From a virus: DNA of 28,951 nucleotides. The DNA lies in IMG/VR virus record IMGVR_UViG_3300046007_009573, positions 1-28,951 of that record, one strand, 5' to 3'. Each line of letters begins with the position of its first letter. Within the stretch, counting starts at the first letter, position 1. The notes below the pieces were generated by a model. The model searched no databases. It was not told where the DNA came from and was given only the letters and a program-made list of their open reading frames with translations. Shown here one piece after another: positions 11,474 to 26,892 of the stretch. The position numbers were made by a program, and so were the translations under genes.

Positions 11474-11692
11474 TTAAATTTCTCGTTGCCAATTGAAGCC
11501 AATGTAATATTCCATTAGCTTCTCCATTGCTGCTTTATATTCTTTATTAGCTGAAAGATCCTCTTGTTTATATGCAGGTAATTCTTTGGCAGATTCGAGG
11601 TTATCTATATCGCTACAAAGATTCTTATAGTCTTGAATAAGAATATTCTTAAGAATGTTATCTACAGCATCGTTGTTTAGTTCAATTATCAT
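11474..11692 (-). CDS. Small phage protein downstream of VWA gene, unknown function
   Basis: A 72-residue protein when started at ATG 11692 (MIIELNNDAVDNILKNIL), which has AAAGGA five bases upstream and overlaps the stop of the VWA gene as ATGA. A longer reading from 11749 would run 61 bases back into the VWA gene and is not needed. It is helical and acidic with a C-terminal AAMEKLMEYYIGFNW, and resembles a short protein I associate with T4-like cyanophages. Coupling to the VWA gene hints at a shared role, but the function is unknown. Confidence 0.75.
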   Translation of the reverse strand: MIIELNNDAVDNILKNILIQDYKNLCSDIDNLESAKELPAYKQEDLSANKEYKAAMEKLMEYYIGFNWQREI

Positions 11693-12939
11693 CGCGATCC
11701 TTTTGCTGCTTCTTCGTAGTGTGCCCAAATGCCCCATGGTGGTTCGCATCCAGGATTGCCTTTAATAATCCATACAGTTTCGCAGTATTGTTCATCGCCC
11801 CAAGAATCATACGGCATGCCATCAGTAAACATAATGAACTTTTTAGGTTCAATGTTTTCTTGTTTCATGAACTGCCAATTGACTTCAAAGTCTGTACCGC
11901 CACCGCCTGCAGGTTCGTAATTCTCGATGTCTTCGATATTGTCCGAAGTATAAGTCTTTACATTATAAATTTCAGTATCAAAGCACCATAGCGTGATCTT
12001 GTACTCGTCAAATGCTTCCATGATACCTTTAATCTCACCCAAGAACGCTTTACTATCTTCTTCACTGATGGATCCAGACTGGTCCATTGCAATACAGATA
12101 TCAATCATCTCTCCGGGCTTGAGGCCAGGCATGACTGCCTCTATGTGCCAACCTCTGCGACTGGGTCTAGCCCAAGTATAATCGTTCTTAATAACCGCCG
12201 TAATTTGCTGTTGTAGCAGTTCCTTCCACCCAATTACTGGTGCTGTAATGTCCTTTAGTAGACGCTTTACACCCATCGGCAAGTTACCTGCACCCGCAGC
12301 CTGTGCAGCACTAATCACAGCGCCTTTGATCTCATCGCGGATAGCCTGCGCTTCCTCTTTACTTAGTCGAGGTTTGCCCGAACCATCTTCGCTGTCGCCG
12401 TCACCATCTTCTTCAAGGTGGTCGTCCAACAACATTTTTTCTAACTGACTGATATCTATCTTGTCTGAATTCTCATACAAATAGTCATATACTTCTTCGT
12501 AACTCCAACCACGGAACTTGTTATCAAACAAGATTGGCACTACACTTATCTTTTCGCCAATACGCTGTTCTACTAGGTCTTGGTTAACACAGTAGTCGGC
12601 AGCGATGTTACTGAGTCGCGGCATACGGTCACCTCGCCGACCCATGTGGTCATAAACCGCATGCAAGATCTCGTGTCCGACCAGGAACTCGAGCTGTTTT
12701 AGCGGCATCTTGTTAACAAACTCACTGTTGTAATAAAATTTGCGTCCGTCAGTTGCAGCGGTTCCGCACCACTCGTCCGCATTGGTCAGAGTCATACGGG
12801 TAGCTAGCTGTCCAAAGAACGGCGCCTTTAGTAGCAAGCCAATACGAGCAGTAGTAAGTTTTTCACGAGCCGCAGCATCTGTGCGCGGATCCGTTACTGT
12901 TACTGCTTTTTGCTTGTCAATCACTGTAGATTCTGCCAT
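11689..12939 (-). CDS. HExxH metallopeptidase-like / VWA domain protein (DUF2201 type)
   Basis: A 416-residue two-domain protein. The N-terminal domain has H89-EILH-93, the HExxH zinc motif, in VGHEILHAVYDHMGRRGD, as in the putative metallopeptidase domain of DUF2201 proteins. An acidic linker (EEDGDGDSEDGSG) lies at about 176-188. The C-terminal VWA-like domain has a complete metal-adhesion set: DQSGS (286-290), a Thr in GGGGTDF, and the Asp of MFTDGMPYD. Such proteins work with MoxR AAA ATPases, and the next gene upstream is one. The start has AAGGAG upstream, and an excellent sigma70-like promoter lies in the spacer. The target is unknown. It could be an active protease or only use the HExxH fold structurally. 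Confidence 0.88.
   Translation of the reverse strand: MAESTVIDKQKAVTVTDPRTDAAAREKLTTARIGLLLKAPFFGQLATRMTLTNADEWCGTAATDGRKFYYNSEFVNKMPLKQLEFLVGHEILHAVYDHMGRRGDRMPRLSNIAADYCVNQDLVEQRIGEKISVVPILFDNKFRGWSYEEVYDYLYENSDKIDISQLEKMLLDDHLEEDGDGDSEDGSGKPRLSKEEAQAIRDEIKGAVISAAQAAGAGNLPMGVKRLLKDITAPVIGWKELLQQQITAVIKNDYTWARPSRRGWHIEAVMPGLKPGEMIDICIAMDQSGSISEEDSKAFLGEIKGIMEAFDEYKITLWCFDTEIYNVKTYTSDNIEDIENYEPAGGGGTDFEVNWQFMKQENIEPKKFIMFTDGMPYDSWGDEQYCETVWIIKGNPGCEPPWGIWAHYEEAAKGSR
11698..11703 (-). promoter_or_regulatory. Shine-Dalgarno deciding the start at 11692
   Basis: AAAGGA five bases before an ATG that overlaps the VWA stop. Confidence 0.65.
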
Positions 12940-12962
12940 TGCTACTCCTTATTGTGTAATAC

Positions 12963-12991
12963 ATTATAGCGAATTCTGTATTTACAGTCAA
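12963..12991 (-). promoter_or_regulatory. Sigma70-like promoter for the VWA gene
   Basis: Read on the minus strand, TTGACT is followed by a 17-base spacer and a perfect TATAAT. The box ends 23 bases before the gene start, so the leader is short and includes the AAGGAG. The spacer contains the palindrome CTGTATTTACAG, a possible operator. This is a close match to the bacterial housekeeping consensus, as expected for a gene read by host polymerase. Confidence 0.7.
12976..12987. repeat. Palindrome CTGTATTTACAG inside the VWA promoter
   Basis: Perfect inverted repeat with a two-base centre, lying in the spacer and touching the -35. The position fits an operator. It is not a LexA box, whose CTGT and ACAG are eight bases apart. 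Confidence 0.45.
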
Positions 12992-12994
12992 TGT

Positions 12995-13031
12995 AAAAAA
13001 GGAGGACTTACGGACTTGGATCCAACCTCCT
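12995..13031 (-). terminator. Rho-independent terminator-like hairpin after MoxR
   Basis: On the minus strand AGGAGG and CCTCCT form a six-pair stem around a 20-base loop that contains the palindrome TTGGATCCAA, and the stem is followed by a run of five to six T. It lies 20 bases past the MoxR stop. The long loop makes it weaker than a textbook terminator. Confidence 0.5.
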
Positions 13032-13050
13032 GCCTCACACGCGATAAAAC

Positions 13051-14154
13051 TTATTTAGAAGAACCCGCAGCGGCTAACACATACTTGCCGTAACGCTGGT
13101 GGAACTCGTCGAAGCTCGGCATCTTGCCTGGCACCAATGGAAGGTTATATGTCGTAAGAGCCACTCGAGCACCCATAACAGTAACTTCGGTTGTAAAGTT
13201 GTCCATCATAAACCGCAAGAAGTTGTCGGCCATTTTATGGAACTCGGGCACTTTGTCTTTGTTCTTAGTGTAATAGTCTTGCAACTCATAACACATAGAC
13301 GTAGTAAGCGAATACATAGCCGAAACTTCTTTGGTCTTGAGTTCTTTAACTTTACCTGCCAAGATGTCTTCGGGCTTGGGTAGTGAACCGGCTACTTTGC
13401 GATGAGCCATAAACTTGTGTGCAATACCCTCGCCTACGCAGCCTGCAACAAGATCCGTTAGTTCACTTGCCGGCATGTCTGTGTCTTTACAAAAGTCACT
13501 AGCAAAGGTCCACGAACGTGGTGTAGCAAAGCTACGACTATTGCTACGTGGATCAAAGTCAAACATGTCACTCTTAGCGAACGACAAGTAACCAACAACA
13601 TCCGCATGGATCTTGTTCTTAACAGCCCATGTCTGCCACGACTCAAAATCTGGACGGACCTCCAGGTGTACAAAGCGATTAGCAAGCGGACTAGGCATAC
13701 GATATGTAACACCCTTGTCCGAATCTCTATTACCTGCCGCCACCATAACTACATTGTCTGGCAAATGATACTTGCCAATTCGACGATTCAAAATCAACTG
13801 ATATGCTGCGGCTTGTACTGCCGGCGCAGCCGAGTTCATCTCATCCAGTAGCAATACTACAATTGGATACTGAGCTGCTAGTTCTTCATCGGGCAAGTCA
13901 ATGGGCGGTGCCCAATCCATAAGACCCTTGTCTTTGTTGTAGAATGGAATGCCACGCATATCTGTTGGCTCCATCTGCGAAAGACGAAGGTCAATCATGT
14001 GACCACCTAGCTCACTAGTAATGTCGGCAATCACTTCACTTTTGCCGACGCCCGGTGGTCCCCATAGGAACATGGGTCGCTTGTGTTTAAACGACCTAAG
14101 GATACGACTACGTGCCTCCTCGGGCGTAACCGTACGGGTTTCTGTAACTGCCAT
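13051..14154 (-). CDS. MoxR-family AAA+ ATPase
   Basis: A 367-residue AAA+ ATPase. Walker A is GPPGVGKS at 32-39, Walker B is VVLLLDE at 99-105, the sensor-1 Asn is in VAAGNRDSD (about 142), and SPLANRFVH (155-163) carries a candidate arginine finger. This is the MoxR arrangement, whose members act as chaperone-like remodelling motors together with VWA-domain partners, as in RavA-ViaA and CoxD-CoxE. The VWA partner is encoded just downstream. The start has TAGGAGA six bases upstream and the gene is separated from its neighbours by a hairpin on one side and a terminator-like hairpin on the other. This gene is less AT-rich than the flanking regions. Confidence 0.92.
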   Translation of the reverse strand: MAVTETRTVTPEEARSRILRSFKHKRPMFLWGPPGVGKSEVIADITSELGGHMIDLRLSQMEPTDMRGIPFYNKDKGLMDWAPPIDLPDEELAAQYPIVVLLLDEMNSAAPAVQAAAYQLILNRRIGKYHLPDNVVMVAAGNRDSDKGVTYRMPSPLANRFVHLEVRPDFESWQTWAVKNKIHADVVGYLSFAKSDMFDFDPRSNSRSFATPRSWTFASDFCKDTDMPASELTDLVAGCVGEGIAHKFMAHRKVAGSLPKPEDILAGKVKELKTKEVSAMYSLTTSMCYELQDYYTKNKDKVPEFHKMADNFLRFMMDNFTTEVTVMGARVALTTYNLPLVPGKMPSFDEFHQRYGKYVLAAAGSSK

Positions 14155-19170: not shown

Positions 19171-19569
19171 TTAACTTATTTCCGTTCTACCATTACCTAA
19201 ATCATTCTTATCTACTCTACGCGGTCTAGAATCAATTGGCTGATTGGCTTCCCACTGCTCAAAATTTTCATTCAAAATATTTCTGCAGATACTTTGAAAC
19301 CATCTATCTACTATTTCTGCATCTGTGTCGGTTTTCTTTATCATATAACCAGACTTGACTAATTTTGCAATAAAAATTTCGTTCCAATCTAATTCAAATG
19401 CCCCGTTGCCTATATCATCTGGATCAAGTTCAACCGCAATCACACTAACATAAGGCTCGCCTGCTTCAGTAGACAGTTCTTTTGGTGTTTTTGGCTTTGC
19501 TCTAGATTTTTGACTTTCTGGTTTAGATTCTGTCTTTACTTCTGGTTTCTTTTTGAACCAATCAAACAT
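19171..19569 (-). CDS. Conserved-type phage protein with charged N-terminus, unknown function
   Basis: A 132-residue protein starting MFDWFKKKPEVK, followed by a Lys/Pro/Ser-rich flexible region to about residue 35 and a globular domain (YVSVIAVELDPDDIGNGAFE, then DTDAEIVDRWFQSICRNIL). The ATG at 19569 shares one base with the queE stop (TAATG); an alternative ATG at 19581 would add four residues and overlap queE further. The globular part has the look of proteins shared by T4-like marine phages. Function unknown. Being coupled to queE does not by itself tie it to that pathway. Confidence 0.7.
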   Translation of the reverse strand: MFDWFKKKPEVKTESKPESQKSRAKPKTPKELSTEAGEPYVSVIAVELDPDDIGNGAFELDWNEIFIAKLVKSGYMIKKTDTDAEIVDRWFQSICRNILNENFEQWEANQPIDSRPRRVDKNDLGNGRTEIS

Positions 19570-20414
19570 TATGTGCCCCATTCATTTTTAAACAAAGGTA
19601 CTTGTAATCTATCACTATATCTTAACCCATGTTTCATTGCTAGATCTGCTACACGTCGATTGTTAAGAGTATAAACACTCTCCACACCGCCCACTGGCAT
19701 GAGATAGATAGGACCTTTGAAACCTTTATTTCTATATTGATCTCGAGCTTTCAGTGCGTCCTCGACATCTTCTTCTGTTGCAACAACAAACTTAAGGTAA
19801 GTGTAGCCAACTTCTTCATATTCGCAAACAACATCCGGGCAAATTGCTTCCTCCCAATTTTCGCCGCTTGCTGGCAATTTAGCACTTACACTAAAAGTAA
19901 TATCATCTTTATTGCGATTACCGCTTGACCAATTATTCAAGTATTCTTTAAATACTGGATCCAGTTTTTGTGTACCGTTAGTTTCAAAAGTAATTTCTTT
20001 CAGCCGTTGCATACGTGGATGATTAAGCAAATCTGGATAAGCACGTTGCCATCCTAACAAAGGCTCACCGCCGGTAATTACCAAGTGTTCGTCTTTCCAT
20101 TTACCATATGGAAGAATTTGCATAATACGTTCTACAATAGCTTCTGTGGTAAGCATAGGACTTAGATCTTTAAATCTTGGATCCCAGCTTGCATAACTAT
20201 CACATCCTGTACTTACTAATGGAAGTTCTTCGTATTTTATATATTTGGCAGGATCGACATTATTGGCCTCTTCGCTTAGTTGCCCTCTAGGCATACCAAA
20301 GCCTGCACACTTAAAGTTACAACCAAATGTTCGAAGGAATACACTAGGTACACCCATGTATCGACCTTCGCCTTGAATGCTGTAAAACAGCTCTGCTATC
20401 TTGATTTTTGACAT
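19569..20414 (-). CDS. queE: 7-carboxy-7-deazaguanine synthase-like radical SAM enzyme (QueE)
   Basis: A 281-residue QueE-type radical SAM enzyme, which should convert 6-carboxy-tetrahydropterin to 7-carboxy-7-deazaguanine. Identity rests on ELFYSIQGEGRYMG at the start, the SAM motif LVITGGEPLLGWQ near 110-122, ITFETNGTQ, and a C-terminal PIYLMPVGG. The cluster motif is unusual: C32-NFK-C36 is intact, but the next two-residue spacing ends in Phe, and the third cysteine seems to be C71 in STGCDSYASWD after an insertion of 34 residues. The enzyme receives its substrate from QueD and FolE, both encoded downstream-to-upstream in this window. No Shine-Dalgarno is visible. Confidence 0.87.
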   Translation of the reverse strand: MSKIKIAELFYSIQGEGRYMGVPSVFLRTFGCNFKCAGFGMPRGQLSEEANNVDPAKYIKYEELPLVSTGCDSYASWDPRFKDLSPMLTTEAIVERIMQILPYGKWKDEHLVITGGEPLLGWQRAYPDLLNHPRMQRLKEITFETNGTQKLDPVFKEYLNNWSSGNRNKDDITFSVSAKLPASGENWEEAICPDVVCEYEEVGYTYLKFVVATEEDVEDALKARDQYRNKGFKGPIYLMPVGGVESVYTLNNRRVADLAMKHGLRYSDRLQVPLFKNEWGT

Positions 20415-20427
20415 AATAATATTGTAC

Positions 20428-20435
20428 TATAAATA
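20428..20435 (+). promoter_or_regulatory. T4-type late promoter box TATAAATA for the oxygenase gene
   Basis: An exact TATAAATA on the plus strand. In T4 the start of transcription lies about six bases past this box, which here would be two or three bases before the ATG, giving an almost leaderless message. No Shine-Dalgarno is present. Confidence 0.5.
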
Positions 20436-20441
20436 TTTAGA
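20434..20441 (-). promoter_or_regulatory. Candidate late promoter box TCTAAATA facing queE
   Basis: Minus-strand TCTAAATA, one mismatch from TATAAATA, sharing the palindrome TAAATATTTA with the plus-strand box. It would give queE a leader of about 14 bases without a Shine-Dalgarno. Confidence 0.3.
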
Positions 20442-20443
20442 TA

Positions 20444-21157
20444 ATGCAAACAATCCTCGAAAATTTCTTTACCGAGCATCAAAATAAAAATTATCAAACG
20501 AAAATAAACAAAGAAGCTACTGCAGATTGGATTTTAAATAACAGTAGTATACCCTATTTACCTTTAAATTTAGAGTCAGTGCCATACAAAGAAATATTAA
20601 CCGAAGCACAGGCACTTGACCATTTGTATGTGCTTCACAGATCCAATGATAGTAAAGGATGGGCTAGTTTATGCATTCATGGCATTTCTAGTCAACACAC
20701 TGATCATTACGCAGTTTATCCTGAATACGCAAATTTAACCAATGACCAAGTTCCTTACAACTGGACGGAAATTCAAGACCGATGTCCTGTAACAGTAAAC
20801 TTTTTTAAAAGTATCTTTCCGTTTGATGTTTATCATCGTATACGATTTATGAGATTAGATCCTGGTGGGTTTATTTTGCCGCATTCTGATAGTCCAGATT
20901 TAAGTTTAAGAGCTGTAAATATTAGTCTCAACAATCCTGATGGCTGTAATTTTGTTTTTGAAAATATAGGAACAGTACCATTTAGTAATACTGGTAGTAT
21001 ATTTATAGTAGCCAACGGATACAAACATAGTGTATGGAATCGTAGCAATGAAACTAGATATCATATAATTGTTCATGGTTATGCAACAACACATTATTAT
21101 TATGATTTAATTAGCAAAAGTTATAATACCCTGATACCAAGTGTCCTCGACATCTAA
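20444..21157 (+). CDS. Fe(II)/2-oxoglutarate oxygenase-like (Asp/Asn beta-hydroxylase type)
   Basis: A 237-residue protein. The metal site is visible as H147-S-D149 in GGFILPHSDSPDL and H195 in NGYKHSVWNRSNETRY, with R205 ten residues later placed to bind 2-oxoglutarate. LDPGGFILPHSD and KHSVWNRS match the aspartyl/asparaginyl beta-hydroxylase branch. The first 110 residues are of unknown type. It would hydroxylate a protein or small-molecule substrate; the target is not shown. It is the only plus-strand gene between 4730 and the right edge. A TATAAATA box ends just upstream of its ATG and no Shine-Dalgarno is seen. Its 3' end overlaps the converging gene by 51 bases. Confidence 0.78.
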   Translation: MQTILENFFTEHQNKNYQTKINKEATADWILNNSSIPYLPLNLESVPYKEILTEAQALDHLYVLHRSNDSKGWASLCIHGISSQHTDHYAVYPEYANLTNDQVPYNWTEIQDRCPVTVNFFKSIFPFDVYHRIRFMRLDPGGFILPHSDSPDLSLRAVNISLNNPDGCNFVFENIGTVPFSNTGSIFIVANGYKHSVWNRSNETRYHIIVHGYATTHYYYDLISKSYNTLIPSVLDI

Positions 21158-22453
21158 ATACACTTTACTATTTGTTCGTTGCAGTTCCATAAACAAATTA
21201 TCTCTAAATTCTTTTAATTGGTCTTTACCAAACATAACTAGACTATATTCCATCCAAAAAGCATTACTGATCCACAAATAGTTGTTATTGTGCTTTTGTA
21301 TTAACTTTGCTAGATTTTTTTGATCCTGCTTGTTGTATAAATTAAGCTCAATAAATTCTATAGATAACTTTTTAAATTGTTTCCAATGCACTTGGAGTAT
21401 TTCCGCACTACAATCAATTTGCTCGATTAAGTAATCAAGATTTTCTTGATATGTTCCCCTAGGTTGGCATACAAATGAATCTGTCTCATTTTTTGTAAAA
21501 TTGGTACAAACATTTTCATAGGTAGATATATTTCCATCCCAATTTTCTATTACGTATTTTTGAAAATTAATTGCTGTCTGACTAAAATCAAAATAGGTAA
21601 TAGATGTATTTTCATCAAATCCATTTTTTACCGCAGTGGCAAATAATTTTAAACCTGCTGCTACACCACTATAGTGATCAATTTTTTCATTTACTTCTGG
21701 ACGTTGCAAAGGTTCGGTATTAAGAACATAGTATTGACTTTTTACTTGTTTTTGTAAGTTTGTAATTAATTCAGAGTACTGTTTTTGTTCGTGTACTGAC
21801 CCAGTATAGTTTTTTCCTTGGAGAAAATTGTAAAAATTTTCCCATTGTTGATCTGGATATAGGTGAAATTTATTTCTGCGGATATGCTCTGGTACATTAG
21901 TAATGGTGAGACCCATTTCAACAAATTCTCTAATTACCTGTGCACCTACTTGCATCTCTTCGACAGCATATTCTTGTAAATGTCCTTTATTTCTTATCCA
22001 GTAAGGTGTATAATCGTCATGAAAAGTTTCGACACTAGATTCTATAGCATTAGCAATAAAGTGTTCTGCTTCTCCCGAATACTCCCATGATGGCCATCCC
22101 GCTGACACCCATGTTTTATAATTAAAAGCAAACAATTGAGGATGTATATGAGGATACTGATCTTTAAAATTTAAAACATGTCCAATCATTGGACTGTTAG
22201 ATTTAAGTGCTTCCACAATTAGTTTATCATAGATATTTCTATCATGAGAACAGTGCCCTGCTGAAACTACAACTACCCAATCTGTAGATGGATCCAATGA
22301 TGCTAATGCAAAGTCTAATTCTGTTACGTAATAAACTTGAAAGTCACTGTCAAAAGGCGTTTGCTGATAAAAATCACCAAGGTTCATTACACGGTGCTGG
22401 TAGTCAGCTGGCAAATGCGTAATGTTATTATATTTTAATAATACTTTGTTCAT
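21107..22453 (-). CDS. Large phage protein, possible glycosyltransferase-like plus methyltransferase-like halves
   Basis: A 448-residue protein that I cannot assign. Residues about 40-130 (ALASLDPSTDWVVVVSAGHC, then SPMIGHVLNFKDQYPHIHPQ) resemble the strand pattern of glycosyltransferase-like phage proteins. Residues about 245-320 (YYVLNTEPLQRPE, GVAAGLKLFATAVKNGF, ITYFDFSQTAINFQKYVI) look like a SAM-methyltransferase Rossmann core, with FDFSQ as a motif-II-like acidic strand. Neither half shows a decisive catalytic motif. It overlaps the gene upstream as ATGA, and its last 51 bases lie under the end of the oxygenase gene. Confidence 0.6.
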   Translation of the reverse strand: MNKVLLKYNNITHLPADYQHRVMNLGDFYQQTPFDSDFQVYYVTELDFALASLDPSTDWVVVVSAGHCSHDRNIYDKLIVEALKSNSPMIGHVLNFKDQYPHIHPQLFAFNYKTWVSAGWPSWEYSGEAEHFIANAIESSVETFHDDYTPYWIRNKGHLQEYAVEEMQVGAQVIREFVEMGLTITNVPEHIRRNKFHLYPDQQWENFYNFLQGKNYTGSVHEQKQYSELITNLQKQVKSQYYVLNTEPLQRPEVNEKIDHYSGVAAGLKLFATAVKNGFDENTSITYFDFSQTAINFQKYVIENWDGNISTYENVCTNFTKNETDSFVCQPRGTYQENLDYLIEQIDCSAEILQVHWKQFKKLSIEFIELNLYNKQDQKNLAKLIQKHNNNYLWISNAFWMEYSLVMFGKDQLKEFRDNLFMELQRTNSKVYLDVEDTWYQGIITFAN

Positions 22454-23274
22454 TGTGAAATAAACGCACGAACTATGTAATCAAATCGTCTATCAATCGT
22501 GCTATAATCATCACAGCCAGTAGCAATAATAATACGGCCAAAACATAACCTAGGATCGTCATTTGTCTCAATCCCCCATTGTTGTTGAAAAAAATCTTGG
22601 TGCTTACTCACCCAATCTTTAAATCCTTTTACGTCATTGAATATATGACTATCGTCTGGTAAAAACCATTTGATTCCAGATCCAACTTTGTGTTGTATTA
22701 CACAACTTGTATGTAAACTTGTATCATCTTGATACAAATAGCTATTATGCGGACTTCGTCCTACATGACTAAAATCATCTTGGATGAAGTTGATACATGG
22801 TTCGGTTGTAAATTCTTTATAATCATCTAGGGTCATATCTATCATTAACCCAGGAGGAACCCATTGGATTTTTTTAAAAACCACTTCAGTGGCCCCTTGC
22901 CATATACTTTCTAAATAATGAATATCATTATGTAATCGTAAATGTAAGTTGGCTTGATCTTTATGCTGTTCGATGAATCTATGTACAGTATTAACTAAAT
23001 TTTGATCTATAAAATTTGAATCAATTTCAGAGGTTTCGAGGAATTTTTGAATATCTGGATCTTGACGAACAGCTAATGCAATCCTGTCTTGATAGACACT
23101 TGGGTCTCGTTTGTAGAATTTAGGGTATCCGTAATAGCTGGGAACTTTATCCTGCACACTTTTAATGCATTCGACCCACTTGTCAGAATAAGAACCCGGC
23201 CGGATATCGAATTCTAAATCTATGAATTCTTTACCGTCGGGTTTTTTAGCACATCTGATTACAAATTTACGCAA
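22450..23274 (-). CDS. Phage protein of unknown function between QueD and the 448-residue protein
   Basis: A 274-residue soluble protein, mixed alpha/beta. Features seen are a histidine-rich stretch (ANLHLRLHNDIHYLES at about 108-123), PPGLMIDMTLDDYKEF, and a Trp/Asp-rich end (WFLPDDSHIFND, then ATGCDDYSTIDRRFDY). The clustered histidines could bind metal, but no known motif matches. It starts inside the end of queD by eight bases and overlaps the next gene as ATGA, so it is co-translated with both. Confidence 0.6.
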   Translation of the reverse strand: MRKFVIRCAKKPDGKEFIDLEFDIRPGSYSDKWVECIKSVQDKVPSYYGYPKFYKRDPSVYQDRIALAVRQDPDIQKFLETSEIDSNFIDQNLVNTVHRFIEQHKDQANLHLRLHNDIHYLESIWQGATEVVFKKIQWVPPGLMIDMTLDDYKEFTTEPCINFIQDDFSHVGRSPHNSYLYQDDTSLHTSCVIQHKVGSGIKWFLPDDSHIFNDVKGFKDWVSKHQDFFQQQWGIETNDDPRLCFGRIIIATGCDDYSTIDRRFDYIVRAFISQ

Positions 23275-23782
23275 ACAGATCCTCGTTCCATTCGCGATGA
23301 CCTTCTCTGAATGCCATATTACTTTGTGTTTCTCTTACTTCGACTCTGTAACACCAAAGTCTTTCTGCTTCACTAGGTCCCCACATATCGGGAATATATA
23401 CACCATTCACATATTTGTATAGCATATCAGCTAGGCCTTCGCAACCAAGTCTTGGCAAGATAGTTAGTTTGGCTAACTTTTTTTCTTGTAGTAAATGAAA
23501 AGTTTCAATTTCGGGATCGTCTTGTGCAACAAGTAGAGTATGATCAAATTGATCTTCTAGTATAGATTTAAGTTCTTTGAGACCACCGTAGTCAGCTGCC
23601 CAGTTACGAACATCTAAATGATCTGTACCAAAATAAAATTTCATTGAGAAACTGTAACCATGAATTAGATTGCAGTGACTGTCAGCACGCCATTGACGAT
23701 ACGCACAAGGAAATGCGTCGTGATATTCTTTGGTACTAGTGTATTTGTAAACTCTAGATGGATATACTTCGTTTAAAAACAT
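23267..23782 (-). CDS. queD: 6-carboxy-tetrahydropterin synthase-like (QueD / 6-PTPS family)
   Basis: A 171-residue PTPS-family protein. SHCNLIHGYSF (35-45) is the CxxxHGH region, with C37 as the likely catalytic cysteine, and WAADYGGLKELKSILEDQFD (61-80) followed by HTLLV is the classic DxxxLK/DH region. The HGH zinc motif reads HGY here, and the earlier FxAAH histidine is replaced by FPCAYRQW, so the zinc ligands differ from the bacterial enzyme. I associate this variant with phages. It should act on dihydroneopterin triphosphate made by FolE and pass product to QueE. A TAGGAGA lies before the ATG and a promoter-like spacer of 97 bases precedes it. Confidence 0.85.
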   Translation of the reverse strand: MFLNEVYPSRVYKYTSTKEYHDAFPCAYRQWRADSHCNLIHGYSFSMKFYFGTDHLDVRNWAADYGGLKELKSILEDQFDHTLLVAQDDPEIETFHLLQEKKLAKLTILPRLGCEGLADMLYKYVNGVYIPDMWGPSEAERLWCYRVEVRETQSNMAFREGHREWNEDLFA

Positions 23783-23800
23783 TTGATTCTCCTATATTAT

Positions 23801-23830
23801 ATTTTAACATAGGCTTGCAGAATTTGTAAA
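23801..23830 (-). promoter_or_regulatory. Candidate sigma70-like promoter for queD
   Basis: Minus-strand TTTACA, 18-base spacer, TAAAAT, in the 97-base spacer ahead of queD, which also holds TAGGAGA. A second TATAAT just downstream has no good -35. Confidence 0.4.
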
Positions 23831-23868
23831 GCGGGAATGAAAGCCAGAAAGGCCGCTGTGTAGAATTG

Positions 23869-23876
23869 TATTTATG
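23869..23876 (-). promoter_or_regulatory. Candidate late promoter box CATAAATA upstream of queD
   Basis: Minus-strand CATAAATA four bases past the PRTase stop. It would give a leader of about 80 bases that includes a small hairpin, so queD may have both an early-type and a late-type start. Confidence 0.28.
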
Positions 23877-23879
23877 TTG

Positions 23880-24410
23880 TTAATTTTCCCACCAATTTTC
23901 CCATGGGAATACTACCCAACAGGGATCATCTAGTTTATTAATATTACGACCCGAATAATCTACATGCTCATAATTACTTGATTCGTTATTAATTAATGCA
24001 GCGAATCTAACATTTTTATTCCATATAGCTTGCCAGGCAGGGTGTCCTGATAAACATGAAGATTGCCAATCCACTCGAATCCATTCCATAGTAGATCCGG
24101 TATCGTTGATATCATCTACAACAAGAATTTTTTTACGATATGCTGGATCAGTTTCTGTTCCACTGTCACCGCGATCTTCTATTGGTACATACCCGAAGGC
24201 ATCTTCGGCCATCCAGCAATTGCTTTCAGACCTTGGTTTGAGAGTTTCCATTGGAACATCAAAATAATGACTAATCATTGTAGCAGCAGTAAGACCACCA
24301 CGAGTAAGTCCTACCACATAGTCAGGTCGCCAATCACTGTTAGCAATATCTCTACAAAGTTTATGAACAAGACTTTTAAACTCTGTGTCTGAAATAACTA
24401 ATTGTTTCAT
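23880..24410 (-). CDS. Phosphoribosyltransferase (type I PRTase)
   Basis: A 176-residue PRTase with the PRPP-binding loop ILVVDDINDTGST at 95-107 and the upstream PDYVVGLTRGGL (29-40), the pyrophosphate-loop region. These match hypoxanthine/xanthine-type phosphoribosyltransferases, which join a base to PRPP to make a nucleotide. An acidic variable region (EDRGDSGTETDPAYR) precedes the loop. The base it salvages is not evident. In this phage context it may recycle host purines, or feed the deazaguanine pathway. Its ATG shares one base with the stop of the upstream small gene. Confidence 0.87.
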   Translation of the reverse strand: MKQLVISDTEFKSLVHKLCRDIANSDWRPDYVVGLTRGGLTAATMISHYFDVPMETLKPRSESNCWMAEDAFGYVPIEDRGDSGTETDPAYRKKILVVDDINDTGSTMEWIRVDWQSSCLSGHPAWQAIWNKNVRFAALINNESSNYEHVDYSGRNINKLDDPCWVVFPWENWWEN

Positions 24411-24598
24411 TAGTCTCGCTCCATAACAGCCGCTTCTTTAATTAAACTGATTAATTCATCAATGTCTTTGCAAAGAATTTTAGCAGTAACCCAATCATTA
24501 TTATCGTCGCGTCCGCCGATTTCTAACATAAAGCCATTGTCATACATGTTTATAGAAAAGCTATCGTTTACTTTAGCAAGTTTTTCGTTGAGTTTCAT
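24410..24598 (-). CDS. Small phage protein, unknown function
   Basis: A 62-residue protein: an N-terminal helix (MKLNEKLAKVND), a beta pair (SINMYDNGFMLEIGGRDDNN) and a C-terminal helix (DIDELISLIKEAAVMERD). The INMYDNGFM-EIGGRD pattern is one I associate with short proteins of T4-like marine phages. It lies between the acidic protein and the PRTase with one-base overlap to the latter. Function unknown. Confidence 0.68.
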   Translation of the reverse strand: MKLNEKLAKVNDSFSINMYDNGFMLEIGGRDDNNDWVTAKILCKDIDELISLIKEAAVMERD

Positions 24599-24613
24599 AT
24601 GATTTACTTCCTT

Positions 24614-25129
24614 TCAGTTATTTGGAAAAGGCCAATCAGTTAAATTTGATTGTGTTGTTTGTGTAGTTGAATTGGTGTTGCTAGTGTCGGGTTCTTCTCC
24701 CCTAATAGTTTCGCCGGTATCTTGGTTTTTGATTTCTAACGGGCCAAATAACCATGCTTCGTTCTCGTCATTGGACCAACCGGCTTCTTCAAGAGCAGTA
24801 AAAGAATCTTCTTCCCAAAGAGCCATTAGTTCTTCTTGTTCCTCTTCTGAAAATTCATCAGAGTCAAAGTCAAAGTCATTGTACCAGCCATCATCCATCA
24901 TTTCCAGTTGAGCACCATTATCTACGTTGTCGCTGGAATATTCGTACATGTTTATTCCGTTAGGATTTTTAGGATCAATCCCTAGCGGCGGTTGATTGTC
25001 GTTGGTTTCAATTGAAAACGTTCCCCACCGAAAGCCGTCAATGATTTTAAAACTACGATTGTCTTTGGTCCAAATCATATGTTCTTCACATGATTTTTTA
25101 TGCATATTTGATACGGTCCAAATCGCCAT
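24614..25129 (-). CDS. Acidic phage protein, unknown function
   Basis: A 171-residue acidic protein. The N-terminal part (MAIWTVSNMHKKSCEEHMIW, then FKIIDGFRWGTFSIE) looks globular. A strongly acidic stretch follows (YNDFDFDSDEFSEEEQEELM, about 83-103), and the C-terminus is Thr/Asn/Gln-rich and probably disordered (SNTNSTTQTTQSN). The acidic region could mimic DNA or bind a basic partner; this is a guess. Its start shares one base with the stop of the 47-residue gene (TAATG). Confidence 0.7.
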   Translation of the reverse strand: MAIWTVSNMHKKSCEEHMIWTKDNRSFKIIDGFRWGTFSIETNDNQPPLGIDPKNPNGINMYEYSSDNVDNGAQLEMMDDGWYNDFDFDSDEFSEEEQEELMALWEEDSFTALEEAGWSNDENEAWLFGPLEIKNQDTGETIRGEEPDTSNTNSTTQTTQSNLTDWPFPNN

Positions 25130-25272
25130 TAATTATCTCCATCAAGTTGTTCAGCTAAGTCGTATAAAATTAAAAAAAGTACACCTAGTATTAGAATAGC
25201 AGAAATACTGCCAAGACGCAAGGCCATGGTCATTGAAATGAGAAAAAAACCAAAAATAGTAATTTTTCTCAT
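25129..25272 (-). CDS. 47-residue single-span membrane protein, unknown function
   Basis: This short gene encodes 47 residues: a basic start (MRKITIFGFF), a long hydrophobic segment from about residue 5 to 36 (with LGSISAILILGVLFLILY) and an acidic tail (DLAEQLDGDN). It has AAAGGAG four bases before the ATG, an ATGA overlap with the upstream gene, and a TAATG overlap with the downstream gene, which together strongly support it as a real gene. One or two membrane passes are possible. Function unknown; small phage membrane proteins include lysis and superinfection-exclusion proteins, but nothing here shows either. Confidence 0.75.
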   Translation of the reverse strand: MRKITIFGFFLISMTMALRLGSISAILILGVLFLILYDLAEQLDGDN

Positions 25273-25502
25273 TTGACTCCTTTTTTCTTTTTGTCTTCTG
25301 CTATTCCTTGTGCTATCATTTTTTTAAAGATAAGCATTACTCGCATTTTTTCTTTTTCAGTTAAGTATTTTACCAACATCAATTTGTCATCGTAGCTTTT
25401 TGCACCTTCCAAAAAGTCTTCTGGAACTGTTATTTTAGGTTTTTTTGGTTTAAATTTTTTTAAATTATTTTTTACGTCATTGTTATTATTATTGTCAGAC
25501 AT
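25269..25502 (-). CDS. Small basic phage protein, unknown function
   Basis: A 77-residue protein with an asparagine run at the start (MSDNNNNNDVKNN), a Lys/Pro-rich segment (LKKFKPKKPKITVP), then a helical part (KLMLVKYLTEKEKMRVMLIF) and a lysine-rich end (EDKKKKGVK). Strongly basic, so nucleic-acid or membrane-surface binding is possible. AGGAAAGAA lies upstream of the ATG. It overlaps the 47-residue membrane gene as ATGA and follows the Bax-inhibitor-like gene with a six-base gap. Confidence 0.68.
   Translation of the reverse strand: MSDNNNNNDVKNNLKKFKPKKPKITVPEDFLEGAKSYDDKLMLVKYLTEKEKMRVMLIFKKMIAQGIAEDKKKKGVK
25277..25283 (-). promoter_or_regulatory. Shine-Dalgarno of the 47-residue membrane gene
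   Basis: AAAGGAG four bases before ATG, inside the end of the upstream gene; key support for this short gene. Confidence 0.7.
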
Positions 25503-25508
25503 TAGTGT

Positions 25509-26186
25509 TTATTCTTTCCTATCTCCAAACAAGTGAAGTAAACTTAGAAACAAATTAATGAAATCCAAGTAAAGGGTAAGAGCTCCCATGACTTCAATTG
25601 CAGGACCGTCTGATTCCATTAATTGCTCTCTAATCTTTTGAGTATCATATGCTGTTAGGCCTAAGAAAATAACAACTGCTGCGGCACTAATTATGGTTTG
25701 AAGTAGACTTGATCCTATAAAGATATTTACGATGCTTGTGATAATAATAGCGATTAAAGCCACAATCAAGTACTTTCCTACGCTATCTAAACTTTGTTTT
25801 GTAAAATACCCATACCCACTCATAGTCACAAATAAAATTGCTGCACCGAAAAACGCACCGGCAATACTAGCGGCTGTATAAATTACAAAAATGGTTGCAA
25901 AGCTCAATCCCATTAGAGCTGCAAAACCATGTAAACAAAGTATAGCAGTGGACTTACTTGGATTATTACCAAGTACGTAACCTACAGCAAAGATTGCAGC
26001 CAATGGTGCAAATACCACAATCCATTTCACTATACCTGTAAATAAAAATGCCATCAAGGCAGCATTTGAAGATACCAATGCACTTACAATCATGCTGGTC
26101 ACAACAGCCAATGCCATGTTGTTATAAACACGAATCATGCTGCTGTTAATTTCTGCTGGTGTTTTATAAGTTAAAGCATATTCCAT
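25509..26186 (-). CDS. Bax inhibitor-1 / YccA-like membrane protein
   Basis: The protein has 225 residues when started at ATG 26186 (MEYALTYKTPAEINSSMIRV), chosen because AAGGAG lies seven bases upstream; the longer reading to 26276 would overlap folE. About seven hydrophobic segments cover residues 20 to the C-terminus. HGFAALMGLSFATIFVIYTA near the middle and FLGLTAYDTQKI near 180 (the conserved TAYDTQ of the family) identify the BI-1/TMBIM family, whose bacterial members (YccA, YbhL, BsYetJ) lie in the inner membrane and either inhibit FtsH or leak calcium or protons. The role in a phage is unknown. Confidence 0.88.
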   Translation of the reverse strand: MEYALTYKTPAEINSSMIRVYNNMALAVVTSMIVSALVSSNAALMAFLFTGIVKWIVVFAPLAAIFAVGYVLGNNPSKSTAILCLHGFAALMGLSFATIFVIYTAASIAGAFFGAAILFVTMSGYGYFTKQSLDSVGKYLIVALIAIIITSIVNIFIGSSLLQTIISAAAVVIFLGLTAYDTQKIREQLMESDGPAIEVMGALTLYLDFINLFLSLLHLFGDRKE

Positions 26187-26192
26187 TATGGT

Positions 26193-26198
26193 CTCCTT
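26193..26198 (-). promoter_or_regulatory. Shine-Dalgarno deciding the start at 26186
   Basis: AAGGAG six bases before ATG, at the folE stop; favours the 225-residue form of the Bax-inhibitor-like protein. Confidence 0.7.
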
Positions 26199-26892
26199 AT
26201 CTAGGTGCAAATTCTTGTTGAAGCTTGATGTTATCAAAAAATTCTTTCTTGGTACTTTGATCATCTTTAAAAGCACCTCTTAACACTGTGGTCTGGGTGA
26301 GACTGCTGTGTGCCATAATGCCTCTATTCTCGCAGCATCCATGTGTGGCCTGTATGTATACAGCCACATCCTTGCTTCCAGTTGCAAATTCAATTTCTCG
26401 TGCAATATCCATGCAAAGCTCTTCCTGTAGCGTTCCGCGACGAGCGCACCATTGAGCAATGCGGGTGTATTTAGAAAGCCCGATGAGTTTTGGTCCAGCA
26501 ATAATACCAATATATGCCACGCCTGTAACAGGTTGGTGATGATGACTGCAAACACTCTTAAGCTCAGAACGGACGACGAGCATGCCGTCATAGGCTCCTT
26601 CAGTGTCATTTGGAAACGCAGTTGCGTTAGGTGTCGGATCATATCTACCTGCCATTAATTCATTGTAATACATTTTAGCAAGACGACGAGCTGTACCTTG
26701 GCTATTAGGATCTGTTGCTCTATCAATCAACAGTGTGTCTAGCACTTGTTCAAATGCTTCTGTGGCTTCGTCAATCAGCTGATCCTTGTCTTCATCCGTT
26801 ACATAACTGCTGATATTGTCTCCGGCCCAGTACCTTTTACCGTCGGCCTGCATTTGTTCTCTAATTCTATCACTTACTCGTGTGTATTTCAT
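26197..26892 (-). CDS. folE: GTP cyclohydrolase I (FolE)
   Basis: A 231-residue FolE, which opens GTP to dihydroneopterin triphosphate. The zinc and catalytic motifs are SVCSHHHQPVTGVAYIG (C115, H117-H119), IGLSKYTRIAQWCARR (137-152) and ATHGCCENRGIM (about 182-193, with zinc Cys 186 or 187). The length is close to that of bacterial enzymes. In this window the product could serve QueD and QueE on the deazaguanine route, or folate made for ThyA/DHFR. GGAG lies six bases before the ATG, and the gene starts directly after the stop of the half-size DegT gene. Confidence 0.96.
   Translation of the reverse strand: MKYTRVSDRIREQMQADGKRYWAGDNISSYVTDEDKDQLIDEATEAFEQVLDTLLIDRATDPNSQGTARRLAKMYYNELMAGRYDPTPNATAFPNDTEGAYDGMLVVRSELKSVCSHHHQPVTGVAYIGIIAGPKLIGLSKYTRIAQWCARRGTLQEELCMDIAREIEFATGSKDVAVYIQATHGCCENRGIMAHSSLTQTTVLRGAFKDDQSTKKEFFDNIKLQQEFAPR

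Follow-up and report, generated by a model that had tools for sequence, protein, structure and literature searches.

A phage-encoded Bax inhibitor-1 family protein of the YbhL/YetJ type

Bax inhibitor-1 (BI-1) is a membrane protein best known for the survival of stressed cells. We found that a linear virus record of 28,951 bases, referred to here over its whole length as the window, carries an intact gene for a phage-owned member of this family (BI-1/TMBIM), of the YbhL/YetJ type. Comparison of sequences further indicates that uncultured bacterial viruses, by the hundreds, carry their own version of BI-1, which forms a separate old branch. Because of this separate and old branch, the viral protein seems to serve the virus as a functional tool and not to be a host gene picked up by chance.

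Gene, fold and family type

The gene lies at positions 25509..26186 on the minus strand and was assigned from its open reading frame, a Pfam profile, a structure model and a tree. Its frame is intact, running for 225 codons (225 aa) from an ATG at 26186 to a TAA ending at 25509, and the plus strand of the same interval contains many stop codons. The original prediction had placed a Bax inhibitor-1 family gene here without naming a strand; the gene is indeed intact, and the frame is that of the minus strand. The ATG sits 10 bases past folE, and a putative ribosome-binding region (TAAGGAG; 26187..26200, minus strand), recognized from the sequence, overlaps the folE stop codon. An alternative GTG start, which would give a frame of 255 aa overlapping folE, is less likely. 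The Bax1-I profile (PF01027) matches residues 15-220 of the protein with 170.6 bits (E 5e-50), five times the Pfam cut-off of 34.1; a search of the PHROG families gave no match. Together with a YetJ-like structure model, this score confirms that the phage protein belongs to the Bax inhibitor-1 family.

The AlphaFold2 model of the protein (pLDDT 91.3, pTM 0.87) has seven long helices and one short helix. The predicted seven-span pattern is thus borne out by the model and by its match to YetJ: all ten PDB chains that matched the model below an E value of 0.001 are entries of Bacillus subtilis YetJ. The two proteins have a like fold (PDB 4pgr and 6nq7-6nq9; TM score up to 0.76 by query and 0.84 by target) at a sequence identity of 22-24%, and both aspartates of the YetJ dyad are common to them, whereas a cluster of charged residues after the second helix of YetJ is replaced in the window protein in the alignment. 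The first dyad residue, Asp181, is the Asp of the TAYDTQ motif (residues 178-183) and corresponds by an inferred offset to YetJ Asp171; its codon lies at 25642..25644 on the minus strand. The second, Asp208, lies within LYLDFINLF (codon at 25561..25563, minus strand) and corresponds, again by an inferred offset, to YetJ Asp195. Both residues were located by alignment and their codon positions were computed from the ATG at 26186. Asp181 is present in 43/43 viral and 57/57 cellular aligned rows, and Asp208 in 41/43 viral and 43/57 cellular rows; the second dyad position is Asn in two divergent viral rows (L178 and L182). Similarly, a regular expression applied to 167 viral loci matched 162 of them, representing 110 distinct sequences; all 162 have Asp181 and 161 have Asp208.

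Escherichia coli has three paralogues of the family, YbhL, YccA and YbhM. Against these the window protein scored 137, 46 and 23 bits, respectively. Its identity to E. coli YbhL (NP_415307.1) is 39% over 224 residues, and the TAYDTQ and LYLDFINLF motifs are the same in YbhL and in alphaproteobacterial YbhL-type proteins. E. coli YccA also has the PF01027 domain and a similar length; however, it aligns with the window protein over 149 aa only, at 27% identity, and has Glu and Ser in place of the two dyad aspartates. Furthermore, the window protein scored 33.4 bits on the YccA equivalog profile NF007765, tenfold short of the cut-off of 353, and E. coli YbhL scored 23.3 bits on the same profile. 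A family assignment as a YccA-like FtsH inhibitor is ruled out by the higher score to YbhL than to YccA, the failure to reach the NF007765 cut-off and the presence of the dyad. These same data (46 versus 137 bits, NF007765 missed, dyad kept) do not uphold the link to FtsH that had originally been drawn from YccA: since the window protein falls in the YbhL/YetJ-type branch, the sequence gives no ground for passing from the family to YccA and FtsH.

We also compared the N-terminal tails that precede the first-helix motif. These comprise 18 residues in the window-type copies and 17-25 in the other phage copies; in cellular BI-1 proteins they comprise about 28-31 residues with the longest ATG start, and a median of 28 with the nearest ATG (77 loci), a value that hinges on the start chosen. 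A shortened, degradation-resistant N-terminus of the kind seen in a stable YccA variant has no support, because the tail of wild-type YccA is 18 residues too.

Distribution and ancestry of the viral proteins

A search of IMG/VR with the window protein gave 506 pattern-matched stretches, 502 of which encode relatives; the best 80 were retained. A second viral relative (L165) used as query gave at least 593 encoding stretches out of 599, a set that overlaps the first. Among the 50,697 records of a cultured-phage collection, 11 match the window protein, none of them annotated; the eleven include metagenomic, Listeria and Enterococcus records, and one of them, MT835812, groups near cellular rows in the second of the two trees described below. 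A cellular query in the same collection gave 15 matches, including gene 332 of Salicola phage SCTP-2.

The main tree contained 30 viral and 57 cellular rows. The viral rows were the window protein, 20 further phage rows (drawn from 35 representatives at less than 93% identity, of which 15 were removed by hand) and 9 more from 20 loci; the cellular rows were 26 hand-picked from 80 loci, 30 from 30 Pseudomonadota loci and E. coli YbhL. Twenty-eight of the 30 viral rows form one all-viral clade with a support of 100/100 and a stem of 1.21; none of the 57 cellular rows falls within it. The two other viral rows, L164 (from a 4.4-kb contig) and L180, are placed among the cellular rows. The viral clade was again recovered at 100/100 in a second tree, from which three long rows and seven near-copies had been taken out and to which two rows had been added. 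An earlier tree that included YccA and YbhM was rejected, as it had rows on extreme branches and drew YccA into the viral group; YccA, YbhM and three further rows (L185, L186 and L188) were omitted from the main tree. At 14 alignment positions, at least 95% of the viral rows have one residue that fewer than a tenth of the cellular rows share, for example Phe128 (Thr in cells), Ala170 (Gly) and Arg186 (Lys).

Among the cellular relatives, which number at least 591, the best 80 loci are YbhL-type proteins with 42-48% identity to the window protein, and all of those listed are from Alphaproteobacteria where the title names a group below Proteobacteria. The window protein finds a match in 320 of 398 evenly drawn Pseudomonadota genomes; among the matches listed, the top identity is 52% over 179 residues and about 48% at full length, and none exceeds 52%. 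The all-viral clade, the fixed positions and the low identity to cellular proteins suggest that the gene was acquired long ago and then evolved within phages. Its source was probably alphaproteobacterium-like, as judged from a cellular sample that comprises near matches only. The gene is under strong purifying selection: 86 pairs of window-type copies with 78-97% DNA identity and a dS under 2 gave a median dN/dS of 0.060 (range 0.027-0.086). An identical protein with the same neighbors is present on a contig from another sample (L002).

It is extremely unlikely that the window gene is a host gene present through contamination or a recent non-functional capture; precedents for contamination exist in the YccA matches in viral records that look like prophage flanks and in the two viral rows among the cellular ones (L164 and L180), but the all-viral clade, the purifying selection, the phage genes nearby and the baseplate and virion proteins of a relative refute it as far as these data go.

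The YccA-type match in Pseudomonas phage AUS531phi was rejected as chromosomal flank, since it lies past the integrase, after a tRNA-Ser and before tus genes. The yccA-like gene at that end of the record (L234) is labelled as a DNA adenine methyltransferase. In E. coli, yccA adjoins serT, and the 98% matches to E. coli YccA in viral records are taken to be chromosomal flank likewise.

A second phage branch is represented by the cultured Salicola phage SCTP-2 (MF360958.1; 440 kb), whose gene 332 (L232:5797-6468), listed as a hypothetical protein, encodes a BI-1 protein. It is of the YccA type, scoring 63.5 bits to YccA versus 43.9 bits to the window protein, and its dyad positions are Glu and Ser, both aspartates being missing. 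A pattern scan of IMG/VR revealed no relatives of this gene, and it cannot be placed securely in the tree, its branch length being at the limit. On these sequences, BI-1 would seem to have been taken up by phages at least twice.

Phage context and gene neighborhood

The neighbors of BI-1 in the window include folE, queD and a phosphoribosyltransferase gene. Directly upstream, folE (26197..26892, minus strand) encodes GTP cyclohydrolase I, as identified by PF01227 (134 bits), phrog_2197 and synteny, and the queD-like gene for a 6-pyruvoyl-tetrahydropterin synthase (23267..23782, minus strand; PF01242, phrog_2389) belongs to the same-strand gene array. Besides folE and the QueD-like gene, the interval 19569-26892 of the window contains a frame recognized by eye as QueE-like radical-SAM; this set suggests 7-deazaguanine synthesis by the phage. 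The window also encodes families known from phages, namely an AAA ATPase (phrog_1297) and, beside it, a DUF2201 metallopeptidase/VWA protein (phrog_1314), at 11689-14154. Among the 50,697 records of cultured phages, 677 match the DUF2201 protein, with very large Sinorhizobium, Pseudomonas and Agrobacterium phages as the best of the matches listed; many cultured records call it an HNH or homing endonuclease, contrary to its Pfam match.

A window-type relative (L016) is a 112-kb record, of which two 20-kb pieces were examined, and encodes a baseplate wedge protein (1002 bits). The same record contains a single frame of 4719 aa on the minus strand (L190:1917-16076), which matches the virion structural protein phrog_10938. 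Among 22 records with BI-1, a T4-type major capsid protein was found in 4, a large terminase in 4 and a tail sheath in 2; as these records are fragments, the missing capsid, terminase and sheath genes mean little.

For synteny, open reading frames of at least 50 aa were called greedily, by which the BI-1 gene of one locus (L066) was missed. The upstream gene is on the BI-1 strand in 75 of 79 loci, with a median gap of 12 bases. Of the 22 window-type loci, 10 have folE immediately upstream and 8 have it one small gene further away, and a gene for a lysine-rich protein of 77 aa (25269..25502 in the window, minus strand) is next downstream in 20. This 77-aa protein, a possible partner of BI-1, matches nothing in Pfam, PHROG or the cultured phages. 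In 8 loci (L009, L018-L023) the gene inserted between folE and BI-1 encodes a small protein, Cys-rich at its N-terminus and hydrophobic in its tail. The other 58 loci have variable neighbors, which are DNA ligase, ClpP, queD or unnamed genes. As BI-1 is retained while its neighborhoods change, it may be kept for its own sake. A RyR domain beside BI-1 in some relatives was rejected, at 20.1 bits against a cut-off of 27.4.

In several relatives (L031, L043, L026, L041 and others) the gene after BI-1 belongs to one of two unrelated small families, of 13 and 12 members, that have the same nine-residue start, M-[IM]-[RK]-E-[FY]-I-N-I-V. The codons of this start differ between the two families, and it is present also where the gene does not adjoin BI-1; in four related records, 210 kb in all, it did not occur elsewhere. 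It is perhaps a leader or targeting peptide, possibly one for the capsid.

Proposed function and significance

The function that we favor, tentatively and with less than even confidence, is that of a pH-gated cation leak that would steady the membrane of the infected cell. BI-1 would be produced together with the phage metabolic genes and placed in the host inner membrane, where it may let cations (Ca2+/H+) leak or exchange under the control of pH; this would damp ion and pH stress, and the membrane of the infected cell would work until phage lysis. In the description given by PMC9379554, TMBIM6 is a pH-sensitive Ca2+ leak with a di-aspartyl moiety as its pH gate, and TMBIM5 is a Ca2+/H+ exchanger that acts via its di-aspartyl moiety. 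Ion flow as such, which had also been predicted originally, would fit the retention of the dyad. Against the leak stand the Asn at the second dyad position of the two divergent viral rows, the replacement of the charged cluster that follows the second helix of YetJ, and the observation that most Pseudomonadota (320/398) already own a match, so that the need of a phage for another is unexplained.

An additional activity on host FtsH may accompany the leak, as in human TMBIM5. This protein, known here from its description in PMC9379554 and not by sequence, is of the same family and has the di-aspartyl dyad, and its membrane carries an FtsH-type protease, although it is mitochondrial, unlike the phage BI-1. 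It binds and inhibits AFG3L2, the mitochondrial FtsH homologue (PMC9379554). Since the dyad-bearing TMBIM5 does both, the phage BI-1 could still modulate FtsH.

We consider it rather unlikely that the protein serves mainly to bind host FtsH(-HflKC), sparing SecY or phage membrane proteins from proteolysis. The precedents are that of TMBIM5 and AFG3L2 and that of YccA, which is described as being degraded by FtsH and as inhibiting, through its binding, the proteolysis of other substrates (PMC9379554); a YccA variant without residues 5-12 is described as rescuing cells whose Sec translocon is jammed (PMC5542435), and the cultured phage SCTP-2 has a YccA-type copy in gene 332. Loss of a Brucella BI-1 homologue is reported to lower viability and raise HflK/HflC (PMC7876416). 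The window protein, however, is distant from YccA, and its 18-residue tail is that of wild-type YccA, not shortened like that of the stable variant. Neither a phage-own FtsH gene nor a Band_7 (HflK/C-partner) gene was found in the 22 partial records (0/22 each), so any target would be that of the host. We know of no signature for FtsH binding.

A counter-suicide protein that blocks membrane-damaging abortive infection, analogous to the anti-death TMBIM proteins that poxviruses and cytomegalovirus carry, is improbable. The poxvirus GAAP is described as an anti-apoptotic TMBIM protein that modulates Ca2+ (PMC6163359), and the model of the window protein matches BFVD structures of giant viruses and of cytomegalovirus US12-family proteins, but the likeness to viral TMBIM proteins lies in the family and not in the mechanism. 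There is likewise a small chance that an old, phage-specific TMBIM branch serves phages widely as an anti-suicide protein, which would control FtsH as well as the ion balance of the membrane and so avert early death of infected bacteria.

For a lysis-timing protein acting via membrane potential or a holin, another part of the original prediction, we see a slight chance. A seven-helix protein with possible ion flux could shift the potential, but no lysis gene is among the named neighbors checked (folE, queD, sugar-nucleotide, DNA-ligase and ClpP genes), most small neighbors being unannotated. A T4-type late promoter was found within 120 bases upstream of BI-1 in 0/79 loci versus 47/1143 genes overall, a difference too small to bear much weight against this role. 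Finally, a virion or injected membrane protein is highly unlikely: the next gene in some relatives begins with the common leader-like peptide, but BI-1 itself is without it and adjoins folE, queD and ligase genes, not virion genes.

Viral TMBIM proteins have been described in poxviruses (PMC6163359), in giant viruses (PMC11953307) and in a prasinovirus (PMC12584671), and a literature search of open-licence papers found no publication on BI-1 in phages. According to PMC7876416, only two prokaryotic BI-1 homologues had been reported by then, and the physiological role of the bacterial YbhL-type BI-1 is hardly known (cf. PMC7876416). As the phage copy is under purifying selection and occurs in at least 593 IMG/VR stretches, its activity would matter within one infection cycle, and this would provide a short, direct assay for the activity of YbhL-type BI-1. 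If FtsH is the target, protease control of the lambda CIII type would extend to lytic phages; if the activity is an ion leak or the control of death, it would connect phages with the TMBIM proteins that animal and giant viruses encode.
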